Below, in pieces: positions 1 through 6,118 of a DNA stretch of 6,593 nt; the stretch's first letter is position 1, and every line of letters starts with the position of its first letter. The stretch lies in assembly GCA_027064785.1 (NCBI GenBank), contig JAMOPE010000410.1:1-6593 (forward strand), in the 5' to 3' direction. Under the pieces are notes generated by a model. That model made no database searches, had not been told where the DNA came from, and saw only the letters and a program-made list of their open reading frames with translations. The position numbers and the translations under genes were made by a program. This stretch comes from Geobacteraceae bacterium (lineage in GTDB: Bacteria > Desulfobacterota > Desulfuromonadia > Desulfuromonadales > Geopsychrobacteraceae).

Positions 1-1782
1 GAGACGCTTGTCGGCCGAAAGGTTCAGAACACAGTTGGAGAGCAGCAGATCGGTGCTGTCGGTTTCAAGTGGGAGCTCTTCAAGGTAGCCTTTACGGAAT
101 TCGATATTATCGTAGCCGAGGTTTCTGCGGACTTCGGTCGCCCCTTCCTCGGCGATAGAGAGCATCGGATCAAGCATGTCGATGCCGATACTGCGCCCGT
201 TTCGCCCGGCCAGCCGTGCCGCAATGAAGATTTCAATCCCACGGCCGCTGCCGAGGTCGACAATTGTTTCACCGGGTTTGATGTCGGCATCAAGAACCGG
301 ACTGCCGCAACCATAACCACGAAAGCGGAATTTTTCGGGAATGTGGGAAATATCGCTGTCGGCGTAGCAGACGGGATTGAGAATGTCGTCTTTGGTGTTG
401 GTTGCGGCGGCTCCGTAATAATCTTTGACAATGCTGCGGCTGTCTTTAGCAGCGATTGCCAGCAGACAGTTGGCATGGGTGAGGGCAACATCGCCATGGG
501 CACCGCAACTTTCAAGGATATCGCCCATCTTCAAGCGTAGCTCTGGTGACTCCTTTTCAGCAAAGCGGGTTGCTTCCCGCTTGATCAGCCAGAAGATAAT
601 GTGTTCGTACAGAGGGAGATAGGGATCGCTTCCCGAAAACTGGCCGTTATGAATCCATGAGTGGTCAAGATCTCCACCGCCGGTCAAGTAGCGCAGCGGA
701 TCATCGTTTTTGGCAACGGTCGTCTGACGAATTTTTTGCAGAACCGGACTGTGGTGCCAGCTGGTGGCAAGATCTGTAGCGATTTCTGTTTTTAACTGCG
801 GTGTCCCGACCAGTGCTGCTGAAGGGTAGAGGTGCCCGTCAGGTCCGATCGCAGCCGATTCACAGCCACTGCTGCTGCCGTCGTGAATTGTTCCCGCCGG
901 GGCGAAAATCTGGGTTTTTAATGCCGTGAGATTATCAATCTGGATTCCAAGCTGCTCCGCCTTTTCAACGGCAGCAATAAAATGGGGAATGATCTCAACA
1001 GGCGGGACAAATTCTTTCGCGACTCCGCGTCCCTGGACGAAATACCAGAGATAATGGAGGTTTGCAGCCCCCACTGCGGCTGCAAAATCGACCAGTCCTC
1101 CCATATCATAAAGGTTGCGCTGTTCAACACACATCGACAAGGTGATGGGAATTTTTTTCTCTTTCAGCACCAATAACTGCTTTCGCAGCTGGTTGAACGT
1201 CCCGTGACCGCGGATCGCATCATGCCGGTCGCCCAGACCATCGACACTGATCTGCAGGTGGATACGACTTAAATCATGATTGCCACTGAGAAGTTTCTTC
1301 AACAGCAACCCGTTGGTCAGAATGACGACGTGACAATCGGAATATTTAAGCAGACCAGTGAGGATTTCATCGATTTCAGGATGAAAAAATGGTTCACCAC
1401 CGGTTAAAGCGAAGATCCGGCAGCCAAGCTCGACAGCCTCTGCCGCACGGTCGAGAATTTGTCGGGCACTCAGCTCTTCGGTCGCTTCAGGTCCCGAAGT
1501 GAAAAGACAATGATGACAGCTGAGATTGCAGCGGTTGGTCACGTGAAACCATAACTCTTTTAATTGCTCTGTTTGCAGTGACTCAGCTCGCCCGGTGTAG
1601 TTGCTGAACGGGGCATCGGGTAACCTCTGGAGAAACTTCTGTCGCAGGGGGTGCTGCTGATTGCTCTGCAACAACAGGTCTCCGCATGTGTTGGGGACAA
1701 ACCAGGTGGGGCGATCAGAACGGATGTAAATCGGAAGCTGATCAAATTCGTAACGCGTCCAGAGCTGTGGATTGTATGACAT
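1..1782 (-). CDS. Radical SAM / ArsM-like methyltransferase fusion protein (3' end beyond the window)
   Basis: The frame is open from ATG at 1782 to the left edge (594 codons, no stop), so the C-terminus is missing. The start is supported by AAGGA six bases upstream. An N-terminal stretch of about 80 residues precedes a radical SAM domain: [4Fe-4S] cysteines C85, C89 and C92 (CNLSCHHC), GGEP at 128-131 and ISVDG at 178-182. A possible SPASM-like remnant follows around C307 (GCES...DGHLYP), with only one clear cysteine. A linker holds C426 and C439. From about residue 452 the protein resembles arsenite methyltransferase: DYYG (454-457), C472, YGCG (490-493), SAM motif I DLGSGRG (509-515), GIDM, and SNCVLNLS (C584). 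By alignment from memory, C472, C492 and C584 match human AS3MT C32, C61 and C156; the C206 equivalent would lie outside. A role in methylating arsenic, or a related soft element, coupled to radical chemistry is inferred. The radical SAM part lacks an obvious resemblance to ArsS. It is the last visible gene of the operon. Confidence 0.9.
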   Translation of the reverse strand, partial: MSYNPQLWTRYEFDQLPIYIRSDRPTWFVPNTCGDLLLQSNQQHPLRQKFLQRLPDAPFSNYTGRAESLQTEQLKELWFHVTNRCNLSCHHCLFTSGPEATEELSARQILDRAAEAVELGCRIFALTGGEPFFHPEIDEILTGLLKYSDCHVVILTNGLLLKKLLSGNHDLSRIHLQISVDGLGDRHDAIRGHGTFNQLRKQLLVLKEKKIPITLSMCVEQRNLYDMGGLVDFAAAVGAANLHYLWYFVQGRGVAKEFVPPVEIIPHFIAAVEKAEQLGIQIDNLTALKTQIFAPAGTIHDGSSSGCESAAIGPDGHLYPSAALVGTPQLKTEIATDLATSWHHSPVLQKIRQTTVAKNDDPLRYLTGGGDLDHSWIHNGQFSGSDPYLPLYEHIIFWLIKREATRFAEKESPELRLKMGDILESCGAHGDVALTHANCLLAIAAKDSRSIVKDYYGAAATNTKDDILNPVCYADSDISHIPEKFRFRGYGCGSPVLDADIKPGETIVDLGSGRGIEIFIAARLAGRNGRSIGIDMLDPMLSIAEEGATEVRRNLGYDNIEFRKGYLEELPLETDSTDLLLSNCVLNLSADKRL

Positions 1783-1842: not shown

Positions 1843-3984
1843 TTAGCTTCTACGCCAGTGGTGATATTTTTCAACCCAGTGGAGCAGCTTTTCGGGAGCA
1901 TGGGCTCGCTTCCATTCGCCAGCAGCCATCTTATTCATTTCAGCTAGGGTTGGATAGATATGAATTGTGCCGAGAACTTTATTCAGACCAAGATTGTACT
2001 TCATTGCCAGAACATATTCTGCCAAAAGGTCTCCGGCATGATGACCGACAATGGTGACGCCGAGGATAGTATCGTTGCCCGGTTTTGTCAGTATTTTAAC
2101 CCAGCCCCGATCTTCACTGTCGGCAATCGCCCGGTCAAGATCATCGATTCCATAGCGGGTGACTTCGAAGGGAATCCTCTGTTGTGTTGCTTCCGTTTCG
2201 TTTAATCCAACCCGGGCAACTTCAGCATCAGTAAACGTACACCACGGAATGACCCGGTCATCGACTTTGAAACTTTTGATGGCTCCAAACAGGGCATTGA
2301 CTGCTGCGTACCAGGCTTGATGTGCCGAGGTGTGGGTGAATTGATATGGACCGGTGACATCACCAACACAATAGATATTCGGAAAATTGGTGCGTAAAAA
2401 GGGATCCGCTGCAATGGTTCCCTGCGGGTTGAGATTGATATTGAGCTCTTCAAGACCAAAGCCGGTCACATTGGCTTTGCGGCCTACTGCAATCAGTAAC
2501 TGATCAAATTCAATCTCGACTGTATCTCCCTGATGATCGCAAATAAGCCACTGCCGCTGCTCGTCTTGTCGGACTTCAATAGCCTGATGTTCGGTTCGGA
2601 CAATGACTCCATCGGCTGCAAATGCTTGTTGAATATGTTCACTGACGTCGGGGTCTTCACGGGACATAATCCTTGAGCCACGTTCAATTTGAGTGACAAG
2701 GCTTCCCAGCCGAGCGAAGGCCTGGGTCATCTCGCAGCCGATCGGACCGCCTCCAAGAATAACCAACTTTTCAGGTCGTTGCCGTAGCTTCCAGATGGTA
2801 TCGGAGGTCAGGTAGTCGATATCCTCAAGCCCCTTAATCGGTGGGATAAATGGTGATGCTCCTGTCGCGATGATAATATTGCGGGTTGTCAGAGTCTCGC
2901 CGTTGACTTCAACTCTCCAAGGGGAGGTGATTTTTGCCTCTCCTTCGATGACATCGACACCGAGCTTGGTGTAGCGTTCAACGGAGTCGTGAGGTTCGAC
3001 CTGGGTGATTTTCTGCTGAACGCGTTCCATCACTGTAGAAAAGTCGTAATCGACTTCGGTCTTGTTGAAACCGAATTCCCGGGCCCGTTTTGCGTAAGAA
3101 ACCATTTTGGCACTGCGGATCAGAGCTTTGCTGGGGACACAACCGGTATTCAGACAGTCTCCACCCATTTTGTGTTTTTCGATTAGGGCAACTTTAGCTT
3201 TAACGGCGGCAGCAATGTAAGAGCTGACCAGTCCACCGCTTCCTGCTCCGATAACGACAATATTGTAATCAAATTTTTGTGGTTTTTTGTAGTTGGCAAA
3301 GATTTTTTGGGCTTGAAAAATTGCTAGTAGGCGTTTCGCAACCAACGGGAAAACACCAAGGAGGGCAAATGAAAGCAACAGCCCGGGAGAAAGAATACCA
3401 CTGGCCGATTCAAGTTGCCCAATCCGCGTTCCGGCATTAACAAAGACGAATGTCCCTGCCAGCATGCCAATCTGACTGACAACGTAGTAGGTTGTAGTTT
3501 TCAGCGGAGTGAGGCCCATCACCAGATTGATGACAAAAAACGGGAAGAGGGGAACCAGTCGCAAAGAAAACAGATAGAAGGCCCCCTCTTTTTCGATTCC
3601 TTCATTGATCGCCTGGAGCTTGTCCCCAAACTTGTTCTGTACCCAATCACGTAACAGAAAGCGTGAAACCAGAAAGGCCAGAGTCGCACCGATGGTGCTG
3701 GCAAAGCTGACAACGATCAGTGCTGTCCATAAACCGAACAGTGCCCCGCCTGCCAGTGTCATAATTGTTGCTCCCGGGAGGGAGAGGGCCGTGACTAGAA
3801 TGTAGATGAAGAAGTAGCTCAACAACGTTGAGAATTGATGGTTCTGGTAGTAGATATCGAAGCGTTGCTGTTGATTTTTAAGATAATCGAGAGTCAGGTA
3901 CTGACCGAGATCAAAGATAAAAAAGCTGGCGACCAGAAGGATGATGATGGCTAGGATGATAATTTTACCGGTGCGACGGTTCAT
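1843..3984 (-). CDS. TVP38/TMEM64 membrane domain fused to FAD-dependent pyridine nucleotide-disulfide oxidoreductase
   Basis: The protein has 713 residues from ATG 3984, preceded by AGAGGA; a TTG at 4005 would add seven residues but has no better binding site. Residues 1-225 are a membrane domain of the TVP38/TMEM64 (SNARE-associated, DedA-like) family: a first helix at about 8-25, then hydrophobic segments at about 52-72, 76-106, 135-158, 166-184 and 200-222, with the family-like region SLPGATIMTLAGG near 68-80 and FSLRLVPLFPF near 139-149. Residues 240-713 form a two-dinucleotide-binding flavoprotein: FAD motif GAGSGG (246-251), redox disulfide C277-x4-C282 in GGDCLNTGCVPSK, NAD(P) motif GGGPIG (411-416), second FAD motif YCVGD (538-542) and a C-terminal dimerisation domain. 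The usual HPTxxE catalytic pair of lipoamide dehydrogenase reads Y677-PTLA-E682, so the base histidine is tyrosine. There is no heavy-metal-binding N-domain and no C-terminal Cys-Cys pair, so a true MerA is unlikely. A membrane-tethered NAD(P)H-dependent disulfide or metal(loid)-linked reductase is inferred; the substrate is unknown. Confidence 0.93.
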   Translation of the reverse strand: MNRRTGKIIILAIIILLVASFFIFDLGQYLTLDYLKNQQQRFDIYYQNHQFSTLLSYFFIYILVTALSLPGATIMTLAGGALFGLWTALIVVSFASTIGATLAFLVSRFLLRDWVQNKFGDKLQAINEGIEKEGAFYLFSLRLVPLFPFFVINLVMGLTPLKTTTYYVVSQIGMLAGTFVFVNAGTRIGQLESASGILSPGLLLSFALLGVFPLVAKRLLAIFQAQKIFANYKKPQKFDYNIVVIGAGSGGLVSSYIAAAVKAKVALIEKHKMGGDCLNTGCVPSKALIRSAKMVSYAKRAREFGFNKTEVDYDFSTVMERVQQKITQVEPHDSVERYTKLGVDVIEGEAKITSPWRVEVNGETLTTRNIIIATGASPFIPPIKGLEDIDYLTSDTIWKLRQRPEKLVILGGGPIGCEMTQAFARLGSLVTQIERGSRIMSREDPDVSEHIQQAFAADGVIVRTEHQAIEVRQDEQRQWLICDHQGDTVEIEFDQLLIAVGRKANVTGFGLEELNINLNPQGTIAADPFLRTNFPNIYCVGDVTGPYQFTHTSAHQAWYAAVNALFGAIKSFKVDDRVIPWCTFTDAEVARVGLNETEATQQRIPFEVTRYGIDDLDRAIADSEDRGWVKILTKPGNDTILGVTIVGHHAGDLLAEYVLAMKYNLGLNKVLGTIHIYPTLAEMNKMAAGEWKRAHAPEKLLHWVEKYHHWRRS

Positions 3985-4086: not shown

Positions 4087-4767
4087 TTAATTGCTGGTAA
4101 AACTGATATCGCCATAACTGGCGGCGACTGAATCTTTTGAATTGTCGCTGTCGGTCATGATGGCGACTACGTGAATTGTTTTGATCTCTTCTCCGAAAAT
4201 GGCTTTCATATCTTCGTAGACATTGCGCTTCTCCCGATACCAGACGCCCTGTTTGTCGGTCGAAGAGCGTACGGCAAGGAGCATCGCATTTTTGCCGGCA
4301 AATGCGTTCGGCCAGACAGAGTTGGTTTTCTCTGATGAAGCCCAGACGTAGTTAATAGCTCGGGTGTTCCAGAAGAACAGTCCCCCTTTGACAACGACAT
4401 AAATTCTGGCGACATAGTCATCTCCGGCTTTGGTTCGCTCGGCAAGGGGCGGGTGAAGCTTGTCGGCACGCCACTCCCAGTTTAGATAGGGGTGGGTTGA
4501 CAGATCGATCTCGACTTCTTTGAACAGCCCTGATGCAGCGGCATTGGTGGACGCTTGAAGGATGACCCGATCGTCCTCCTTGACCAGCTGATAATGAGTT
4601 TTACCGGAAAATTCCTTCTCTTCCCATCCCGCAAGGGTATTGTGCGAAAACTCACCAATCGGGATGGACATTTCCCTTTGATTCTGAGCAGCAAAAAGCG
4701 AGAAAGGGATAAAAAAGGTTATAAATAGGAGCGTAGCTGTCATTATCCTCCTAGTCTGAATAGTCAT
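4087..4767 (-). CDS. Exported DUF3047 family protein
   Basis: The protein has 226 residues from ATG 4767. An upstream in-frame start at 4842 would sit inside the previous gene and bury the signal peptide, so 4767 is preferred; a strong AGGTGA lies just before it. Residues 1-27 look like a Sec signal peptide: RR near the start, a hydrophobic core at about 10-25 and a break at FAAQ. The rest matches DUF3047 as I remember the family: YLNWEWR (94-100), ERTKAGDDYVARIYVV (110-125), INYVWAS (138-144), VWPNAFAG (151-158), an arginine-rich RNVYEDMKAIFGEE segment, and a terminal MTDSDN...ASYGDI (204-221). No biochemical role is established for the family that I can name, and no catalytic residues are obvious. 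It probably acts in the periplasm. The start lies four bases past the stop of the glycosyltransferase gene, so the two are likely translationally coupled. A 102-base gap separates it from the flavoprotein gene. Confidence 0.9.
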   Translation of the reverse strand: MTIQTRRIMTATLLFITFFIPFSLFAAQNQREMSIPIGEFSHNTLAGWEEKEFSGKTHYQLVKEDDRVILQASTNAAASGLFKEVEIDLSTHPYLNWEWRADKLHPPLAERTKAGDDYVARIYVVVKGGLFFWNTRAINYVWASSEKTNSVWPNAFAGKNAMLLAVRSSTDKQGVWYREKRNVYEDMKAIFGEEIKTIHVVAIMTDSDNSKDSVAASYGDISFTSN

Positions 4768-4771
4768 GGAA

Positions 4772-4777
4772 TCACCT
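4772..4777 (-). promoter_or_regulatory. Ribosome binding site of the DUF3047 gene, overlapping the upstream stop codon
   Basis: The minus strand reads AGGTGA four bases before the ATG at 4767-4765. Its last three bases are the TGA stop codon of the glycosyltransferase gene, an arrangement typical of translational coupling. It decides the start of DUF3047 in favour of the position giving a normal signal peptide. Confidence 0.7.
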
Positions 4778-6118
4778 TTTCTTTTTGCCTCGATAGAAAT
4801 GGCTGAGTCTTTGGATTGGGATTCCAAGGAGAAAACCGACAATCATCAGCTGGTTGGTTACGGTGGTGCGTATTGCTCCCAGGGTTTTCCAGCGGCGTGC
4901 TGAAGTTACCGCAGCTTCCGGCAGCGTTACAATTGTACCACGTCGGCGGAGTTTGCGTACAAAGGCAAAATCTTCCATGATTGGCAGGAGTGGAAATCCA
5001 CCAAGGCCCTCAAATGTTTCGCGGCGTAAAAATAACCCTTGATCACCATAGGGAAGTTGGAAACGGGTTGAGCGGAGGTTTGTTCCCCACTCAATGACGC
5101 GCATGACAGTCCCTGTATGATCCGTCTTGAAACGAAAAGCTCCGGCAGAGACGCATGGATCTTTCAGCACTGAAATAATTAAATCGGGGTAGTTGGCAGG
5201 GAGCAGAGTGTCAGCATGGAGAAATAATAAATATTTCCCCCGACTCACTGCCGCACCACGGTTTAATTGTGCTGCTCGACCGCCAGCAGCAACAATAAGC
5301 TTAACCCCTGATCTCGTCGCAATCTCACCCGTTGTGTCGTCACTGCCCCCATCCGCAACAATAATTTCGACACTTTTGAGTCTCTGCAAATTATGGAGGG
5401 TCTTTTCGAGAGTCTGCGCTTCGTTGAGGGTTGGGATAATAACTGAAAGCCTTGGGGTGCAGTAGATGAGATCGCAGAATCTCGAATCATCTCTCAATTG
5501 GGGTAGGTCATCCGGGCGGTCAATATCAGACAGTCTCTCTAATATTGCGACTTTCAGCCCCCGGCGTGCCGCAATCACCAGCGTTTGCCGTAATACTTTA
5601 TCGGTTCCCCATTCGATACCGGCGAACAGTTCGGGGTAATGTTCTTTCATCCCGATGAGATAGTACCCGCCATCATCTGCCGGGCCGACAACAAGATCGT
5701 GATCTATAAGACTCTTCTCTGCCTGATGCAATCGCGCCGGGGAAAGCTTTGGGGCGTCCGTCCCGATTCCGATAGCGCAATGTGTTCCGTTTTTGAATGC
5801 TGCGGTGAAGGCGCATTTCATCCGTTCACCTAAATCATCTCCAAATTGTTCCAAATAGGTGAGATCGCTTCCCAGCCAGTTACGAAAAGCTGTTTCTGTT
5901 GCGCCGGTGTAATGGAGGCTGATTTTCCGTTTCGGACTCTCCGTTTTCTGACACCATAGCCGGGCTGTCTCGACCGTCACTTCAGCCATTCTGCGGTGAA
6001 GTTGAGCAGCATTAGCGGCACCGATTGCCGGAATAAGTCGGGTCTTGGCTTTTCCTGCGGAGGGGTATTTACTAAAAATTAAAAGTTGAGTCGTTGGTTT
6101 GGTTGTCATCTTGTTCAA
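4772..6118 (-). CDS. Two-domain glycosyltransferase: TIGR04282 (DUF2064) fused to TIGR04283 family-2 glycosyltransferase
   Basis: The protein has 448 residues if it starts at TTG 6118, or 445 from ATG 6109. The TTG sits four bases after AGGA, while the ATG is 13 bases away, so TTG is slightly favoured. Residues 10-215 match the DUF2064/TIGR04282 nucleotidyltransferase-like fold: FSKYPSAGKAKTRL (15-28), GTDAPKL (119-125), GPADDGGYYLIG (145-156) and DIDRPDDL (198-205). Residues 223-448 match TIGR04283, a GT-A family-2 transferase: SVIIPTLNEA (225-234), ADGGSDDTT (255-263), GRAAQLNRGA (280-289), LHADT (300-304, the metal/nucleotide-sugar DxD-like site), GAFRF, YGDQGLFLRR (357-366), MEDF (381-384) and a terminal LSHFYR. 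There is no signal peptide, so it is cytosolic. These two families are usually separate adjacent genes; NCBI names them arsenosugar-biosynthesis glycosyltransferases from genomic context. Sugar transfer to, or activation for, an arsenic- or selenium-related metabolite is inferred. The donor and acceptor are unknown. Confidence 0.93.
   Translation of the reverse strand: MNKMTTKPTTQLLIFSKYPSAGKAKTRLIPAIGAANAAQLHRRMAEVTVETARLWCQKTESPKRKISLHYTGATETAFRNWLGSDLTYLEQFGDDLGERMKCAFTAAFKNGTHCAIGIGTDAPKLSPARLHQAEKSLIDHDLVVGPADDGGYYLIGMKEHYPELFAGIEWGTDKVLRQTLVIAARRGLKVAILERLSDIDRPDDLPQLRDDSRFCDLIYCTPRLSVIIPTLNEAQTLEKTLHNLQRLKSVEIIVADGGSDDTTGEIATRSGVKLIVAAGGRAAQLNRGAAVSRGKYLLFLHADTLLPANYPDLIISVLKDPCVSAGAFRFKTDHTGTVMRVIEWGTNLRSTRFQLPYGDQGLFLRRETFEGLGGFPLLPIMEDFAFVRKLRRRGTIVTLPEAAVTSARRWKTLGAIRTTVTNQLMIVGFLLGIPIQRLSHFYRGKKKR

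Follow-up and report, generated by a model that had tools for sequence, protein, structure and literature searches.

To our knowledge, the methyltransferase ArsM together with the radical S-adenosylmethionine (SAM) enzyme ArsS is the only system described for the first steps of arsenosugar synthesis. The two are reported to act jointly in these initial steps in Synechocystis (cited in PMC8552651), and the abstract of PMC13197290 gives arsenosugars as major arsenic forms in marine algae. In arsinothricin formation, a radical SAM enzyme and an ArsM likewise act successively on arsenic, but as separate proteins, with ArsL transferring a 3-amino-3-carboxypropyl group and the radical step coming first. 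Here, a gene was analysed that joins a radical SAM domain and an ArsM-type methyltransferase domain in one polypeptide. It lies in a stretch of 6,593 nucleotides (the window), which is the entire contig JAMOPE010000410.1 (C410) of a 2.37-Mb Geobacteraceae genome (GCA_027064785.1, G000) and carries five genes, all on the minus strand. Loci, genomes and proteins compared with it are given by running numbers (L, G and P).

The fusion of radical SAM, ArsM-type and, in its full-length relatives, DUF5714 domains is, on balance, predicted to make an organoarsenical alone, replacing separate ArsM and ArsS. It is read as an ArsM-ArsS substitute because it holds both kinds of domain, has a like gene setting and is present where ArsS is absent. 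Fusing ArsM is itself a known theme, since ArsR-ArsM (PMC10190100) and ArsM-SelD (in a passage of PMC5552862) exist, and so does an ArsM-ArsS fusion found in this study (L154, genome G128, 688 amino acids). The latter, at 7701-9767 of its locus, matched the ArsM model NF040538 with 350 bits (cut-off 500) at residues 15-332 and TIGR04167 (ArsS) with 302 bits (cut-off 300) at residues 392-687, so the two enzymes can also occur joined in one protein, contrary to the assumption of the original prediction for this DNA. Like the window fusion, L154 combines a methyltransferase and a radical SAM enzyme of the same pathway in one polypeptide, but its reverse domain order, true ArsS domain and lack of DUF5714 indicate a separate fusion event. 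Long frames around ArsS in G090 (676 amino acids) and G308 (697 amino acids, one TGA) may be further ArsM-ArsS fusions. A non-ArsS radical SAM domain in the ArsS slot, combined with DUF5714, was not found in the literature searched.

The fusion gene and its relatives

The frame runs on the minus strand from 1782 to 1 (594 codons), with AAGGA located 7 nt upstream of its ATG. As first read from the letters alone, it is a single open frame with a radical SAM and an ArsM-like domain, and the codons for C85, C89, C92, GGEP (G128, P131), C472, C492 and C584 are at the predicted residues. The domain scores were far above chance (Radical_SAM, PF04055, 5e-22; Methyltransf_31, 4e-17; PRK11873, arsenite methyltransferase, 2e-38 and 132 bits). 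Relatives were sought among 5.8 billion proteins, from which 7997 candidates were scored; 641 were found at E 1e-3. Nearly all of the best 120, which were listed, had both domains, and most of these were about 1000 amino acids long, with Radical_SAM, Methyltransf_31 and a C-terminal DUF5714 (PF18978). They had been named 'DUF5714 domain-containing protein', 'methyltransferase type 11' or radical SAM enzyme/methyltransferase. Cultured bacteria with such relatives are Desulfuromonas acetoxidans (P0050) and Syntrophotalea acetylenivorans (P0092); the bacterium of the window itself is closest to Desulfuromonas-type organisms. Residue conservation was counted over 59 aligned fusion relatives.

The closest relative among the matches listed (P0006, 1006 amino acids) was 99% identical across all 594 residues. 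The sole DUF5714 of the window's genome is at the end of another contig, C436 (205 bits; Pfam gathering score 26.2), where an open frame corresponds to residues 709-1006 of P0006 at 97% identity. Because of this match, the gene most simply continues on C436, and residues 595-708 (about 114, including C634) would be in an assembly gap. The two domains first described are thus both present, and the full-length relatives and C436 add a third. No named family had been recognised for the architecture, and indeed P0006 stayed below the cut-offs of all 25 NCBIfam models that were listed, of 78 matching.

That the window gene ends at a contig end would suit an assembly artefact or a decayed gene, a reading with practically no chance of being right given the independent full-length copies in separate assemblies. 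Fusion frames of at least 911 amino acids were found in 25 of 345 genomes of the phylum, and separate assemblies hold 19 loci. At L056 (9045-12142) and L089 (1681-4967), the radical SAM-methyltransferase and DUF5714 parts are two adjacent frames (741 + 342 and 761 + 334 amino acids, respectively), by natural split or frameshift. If the bins are clean, fusions also occur beyond the phylum, in an Acidobacteria bin (L013, 1051 amino acids) and a Chitinispirillum bin (L015, 1023 amino acids).

Domains of the fusion protein

By its cysteines, tree position and fold, the middle domain is of the ArsM type, which agrees with the first reading of the sequence. It has the SAM-binding fold and the three As(III)-ligand cysteines of ArsM/AS3MT: C72, C174 and C224 of CmArsM correspond to C492, C584 and C634, present in 59 of 59 relatives. 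In the window's genome C492 and C584 were read, and C634 falls inside the assembly gap. The key test of the original prediction was a fourth cysteine in a W-x-E-C context. The cysteine exists as C634, within G-E-C, in 59 of 59 relatives, but the context in those relatives that were read is Q/R/H-G-E-C, and CmArsM and CrArsM likewise have no W of W-x-E-C. The equivalent of CmArsM C44, C472, is present in the window protein and in 40 of 59 relatives but in none of 30 PRK11873 ArsMs as aligned, and therefore does not define the ArsM family. Fold alignment with CmArsM (4fr0), CrArsM (5evj) and human AS3MT (8xt7) covered model residues 470-734 at about 30% identity. Unlike ArsM/AS3MT, the domain is the middle part of a protein of 1000 amino acids.

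Judged from model scores, the domain is nevertheless outside the PRK11873 (NF008823) subfamily, as P0006 gave 214 bits (cut-off 263); with AsSugarArsM it gave 114 bits (cut-off 400). In the tree, the fusion domain grouped with three solved ArsMs, five ArsMsug and one ArsM-ArsS (support 81). As outgroups, the tree had five methyltransferases from the window's own genome and one of the DVU_1556 type; six close fused rows of the 59 were omitted, as were nine weak or unrelated of 15 own-genome methyltransferase places, one more place being the window itself. A quinone or sterol methyltransferase was ruled out, as the domain groups with ArsM and the outgroups, which are not typed quinone or sterol enzymes, fall outside.

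The first domain belongs to the radical SAM superfamily by its CX3CX2C cluster motif and PF04055. It is not ArsS, the model proposed as a check: TIGR04167 gave 48.9 bits vs a cut-off of 300, with an alignment across the core alone. The fusion shares with ArsS the radical SAM core with CX3CX2C and common neighbour families, but four cysteines past the core are invariant in 29 of 29 ArsS and unmatched in the fusion, where C426 and C439 are the only ones. A single in-frame TGA (selenocysteine according to the NCBI family name) occurs in many ArsS genes, whereas none was seen in the fusion frames. The nearest solved folds were CteB, anSME and SkfB, which are peptide-modifying SPASM maturases. SPASM maturases have a full seven-cysteine motif. 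In the fusion, the region after the core has a SPASM-like fold, but the cysteines for the auxiliary 4Fe-4S cluster are missing. W307, E308 and S309 were more than 90% conserved in the relatives; the window protein has C307.

In the third domain, 13 cysteines were invariant in 59 of 59 fusions (771, 774, 789, 792, 802, 809, 812, 892, 898, 944, 945, 976 and 985), and seven of them, including a Cys-Cys pair, were still invariant in 33 mostly standalone DUF5714 copies. Zinc-ribbon-like CxxC pairs were present. Predicted alone, DUF5714 was well folded (predicted local distance difference test 91.6), and no confident fold match to it was found in the PDB. The DUF5714 part matched MbdU (NF045648, 'metal-binding double selenoprotein') with 145 bits (cut-off 600). 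MbdU has two selenocysteines, and no in-frame TGA was found in the C436 frame; a passage of PMC13188914 gives CU as its motif. The fusion resembles MbdU by this match, and ArsM_DUF2284, ArsM_AhpD and MTase_UXPK_star in having an ArsM-type domain fused to other modules, but these names include no radical SAM, their cut-offs were not reached and the fusion has no selenocysteine.

A second setting of the radical SAM, methyltransferase and DUF5714 trio was found in 2 of 17 standalone DUF5714 loci (L095 and L096, with the same gene clusters). In L095, DUF5714 adjoins a gene for the radical SAM enzyme TrsS (546 bits vs a cut-off of 490), a DVU_1556-type methyltransferase is nearby (143 bits, slightly below the cut-off of 155), and a DVU_1553-type ligase and a molybdopterin aldehyde oxidoreductase are also present. 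Here the three are neighbours as in the fusion they are domains, but they are three genes beside the oxidoreductase, with a Tes-like radical SAM enzyme and a different methyltransferase family. DUF5714 may thus partner other pairs of radical SAM enzyme and methyltransferase. The trio is not general, because the other standalone loci scanned by family (6 of the 17 were scanned) had LarC, an AcsV-like, PurH-like or ArnT-like protein, or nothing. LarC (nickel pincer cofactor) adjoins standalone DUF5714 in L083, and an AcsV-like corrinoid activation protein, below its cut-off, in L069.

Gene setting and distribution relative to ArsS

One neighbour of the fusion in the window passes both NCBIfam cut-offs for 'arsenosugar biosynthesis glycosyltransferase' (TIGR04282 and TIGR04283). 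Profiles for five neighbour families (TVP38-like, MerA-like, TIGR04282-like, TIGR04283-like and DUF3047) were built from the fused loci and applied to 50 fused, 38 ArsS and 17 standalone-DUF5714 loci. At least one family was found in 28 fused loci, a count that is circular because the profiles came from fused loci; in 23 ArsS loci, which gives no rate because these loci were hand-picked, some for a nearby TIGR04283; and in one standalone locus. Two or more families were found in 20, 15 and 0 loci, respectively. All five occur beside ArsS in some loci (e.g., L144, L159 and L160). A single gene accounts for both L017 and L100, so the 50 fused loci represent at most 49 genes, and the fusion in L058 and L092, overlooked in the picking of open reading frames, was shown there by tblastn.

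The distribution was counted in 345 genomes drawn evenly across the phylum (ArsS at E 1e-50, TIGR04283 at E 1e-30). DUF5714 was found in 45 genomes, ArsS in 106, TIGR04283 in 163 (144 above the cut-off) and the fusion in 31. None of the 31 fusion genomes carried ArsS (9.5 expected), and TIGR04283 was present in 30 of the 31 and in 100 of the 106 ArsS genomes. The 163 TIGR04283 genomes thus divide into 100 with ArsS, 30 with the fusion, 0 with both and 33 with neither. DUF5714 outside the fusion had no such link: in the first count (16 genomes), four had ArsS and six TIGR04283. Another genome of the window's family, G126, carries ArsS. The fusion set consists of frames of at least 911 amino acids in 25 genomes and of pieces or split frames in G000, G156, G209, G218, G261 and G280; the pieces are contig ends or adjacent split frames, and G280 rests on a 64-residue piece. 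A first count of 29 genomes, without G209 and G280, gave ArsS in 0 of 29 and TIGR04283 in 28 of 29.

Positions of TIGR04283 were taken from the best 150 places, with weak places absent and some contigs short, so that the counts of nearby TIGR04283 are lower bounds. It was within 10 kb of the gene in at least 35 of 106 ArsS genomes (at least 15 of the 38 picked for the locus comparison and at least 20 of the other 68), in at least 10 of 31 fusion genomes and, among the places listed, in 0 of 14 other DUF5714 genomes. By these lower bounds (35/106 vs 10/31), ArsS and the fusion share the TIGR04283 neighbour at a like rate.

The features of the window are collected in Table 1. In the TVP38-like/MerA-like gene, ATG is at 3984 and the frame is open from 4005. 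Its two parts are fused in the window and are adjacent genes in L017, L064, L085 and L100; TIGR04282 and TIGR04283, also fused in the window, are separate genes in, e.g., L064, L085, L098 and L100. A search of the window for RNA elements gave no Rfam matches. Searches for promoters and terminators gave 9 and 8 patterns, respectively, vs 5.9 and 7.3 in shuffled sequences, and were uninformative.

Table 1. Features of the window, with positions in nucleotides from its first letter
Feature	Position	Strand	Remarks
Fusion gene, first 594 codons (radical SAM + ArsM-type methyltransferase)	1..1782	-	ATG start; open at contig end
Radical SAM core, residues ~75-260	1003..1560	-	PF04055 at residues 81-219, E 5e-22
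CX3CX2C motif C85/C89/C92, for 4Fe-4S cluster	1507..1530	-	Invariant in 59/59 relatives
GGEP SAM-binding motif, residues 128-131	1390..1401	-	G128, G129, E130 and P131 invariant in 59
SPASM-like region, residues 261-444, without auxiliary-cluster cysteines	451..1002	-	
C426	505..507	-	With C439, sole invariant cysteines of the SPASM-like region
C439	466..468	-	See C426
ArsM-type methyltransferase domain, N-terminal part, residues 449-594	1..438	-	PRK11873; CrArsM, CmArsM, AS3MT
C472, CmArsM C44 equivalent	367..369	-	C in 40/59 relatives
C492 in YGCG, As(III) ligand equivalent	307..309	-	59/59 relatives
C584 in SNCVLNLS, As(III) ligand equivalent	31..33	-	59/59 relatives
TVP38/TMEM64-type membrane domain + MerA-like FAD pyridine-nucleotide disulfide oxidoreductase, one protein	1843..3984	-	PF09335 6e-22; PF07992 4e-65
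DUF3047 protein	4087..4767	-	PF11249 6e-57; ATG 4767 likely, frame open from 4842
TIGR04282 + TIGR04283 glycosyltransferase-like domains, one protein	4772..6118	-	204 bits (cut-off 134); 247 bits (cut-off 182)
PDZ protein	Cut by right end of window	-	

Predicted function and its alternatives

In the proposed mechanism, DUF5714, with its Cys-Cys and CxxC pairs, would bind the metalloid, or an intermediate, and pass it on. The methyltransferase domain would bind As(III) and methylate arsenite, after which the methylated arsenic would receive a 5'-deoxyadenosyl group from the radical SAM domain. Of the neighbours, the glycosyltransferase-type domains may convert this adenosylated compound to a product of the arsenosugar type, and the TVP38-like/MerA-like protein may move or reduce arsenicals. 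The gene context and the exclusion of ArsS add weight to the case for a methyl and a radical step on arsenic. The complete version, a one-protein organoarsenical synthase of anaerobes in which DUF5714 captures As(III), the ArsM-type domain methylates it and a radical SAM domain with a degenerate SPASM region adds the 5'-deoxyadenosyl group, invented separately from ArsS for the same pathway slot in at least 17 families of the phylum, is proposed tentatively, as a possibility somewhat short of probable.

Several observations weigh against the proposed ArsM-ArsS replacement. The 'arsenosugar' names of TIGR04282 and TIGR04283 are NCBI annotation labels, the sequence retrieved around 22 of the 50 fused loci held no member of the five neighbour families, and, among the places listed and with some contigs short, 21 of the 31 fusion genomes had no TIGR04283 within 10 kb. 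The 33 TIGR04283 genomes with neither the fusion nor ArsS do not fit, and the genomes counted are related and not independent, so that the Fisher values overstate independence, although the 31 fusion genomes span 17 families. PRK11873 was matched at E 1e-40 in only 49 of the 106 ArsS genomes (57 were without a match), so that ArsS in the phylum may do something other than cyanobacterial arsenosugar synthesis. Tree support was 61 for the whole ArsM group against the six outgroups and 32 for the fused-clade node. The radical SAM domain, finally, is not ArsS and aligns with it in the core alone, and its nearest solved folds belong to peptide-modifying enzymes.

A radical SAM domain other than ArsS need not catalyse the ArsS reaction. 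The fusion might methylate arsenic and make another C-As bond, either by transferring 3-amino-3-carboxypropyl in the manner of ArsL in arsinothricin formation or by coupling arsenic to a small molecule or lipid; ArsL-ArsM is, in a passage of PMC8552651, a proven pair of this kind. The gene context and the mutual exclusion, however, indicate the same slot as that of ArsS, and ArsL was absent from the 25 NCBIfam matches listed of 78, which counts weakly, so that this reading is considered unlikely.

Because the nearest solved folds modify peptides, a peptide substrate would also be compatible with the radical SAM domain. The protein would then be a metalloid methyltransferase whose radical SAM domain modifies a peptide or its own protein (the Cys-rich DUF5714, or a metallophore), and would serve as a detoxification or cofactor enzyme rather than in arsenosugar synthesis. 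The loss of the SPASM auxiliary-cluster cysteines and the neighbours in common with ArsS speak against this, and it was judged a rather improbable alternative. Least probable among the functional alternatives, with a slim chance, is that the same architecture acts on another element, namely antimony, tellurium, selenium or mercury. The relationship of DUF5714 to MbdU speaks for it, as a passage of PMC13188914 links selenoproteins of the MbdU set to mercury and arsenic; against it, the As(III) ligands of ArsM are invariant, all three of them, and the tree places the domain within the ArsM group.

If the replacement of ArsM and ArsS by the fusion is true, a second, different radical enzyme in the same slot would suggest that radical C-As bond formation was solved more than once, and organoarsenical synthesis would extend to further anaerobic bacteria. 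The fusion would offer one protein for the joint study of the methylation and radical steps and of metalloid hand-over, and the DUF5714 family would gain a concrete functional hypothesis.
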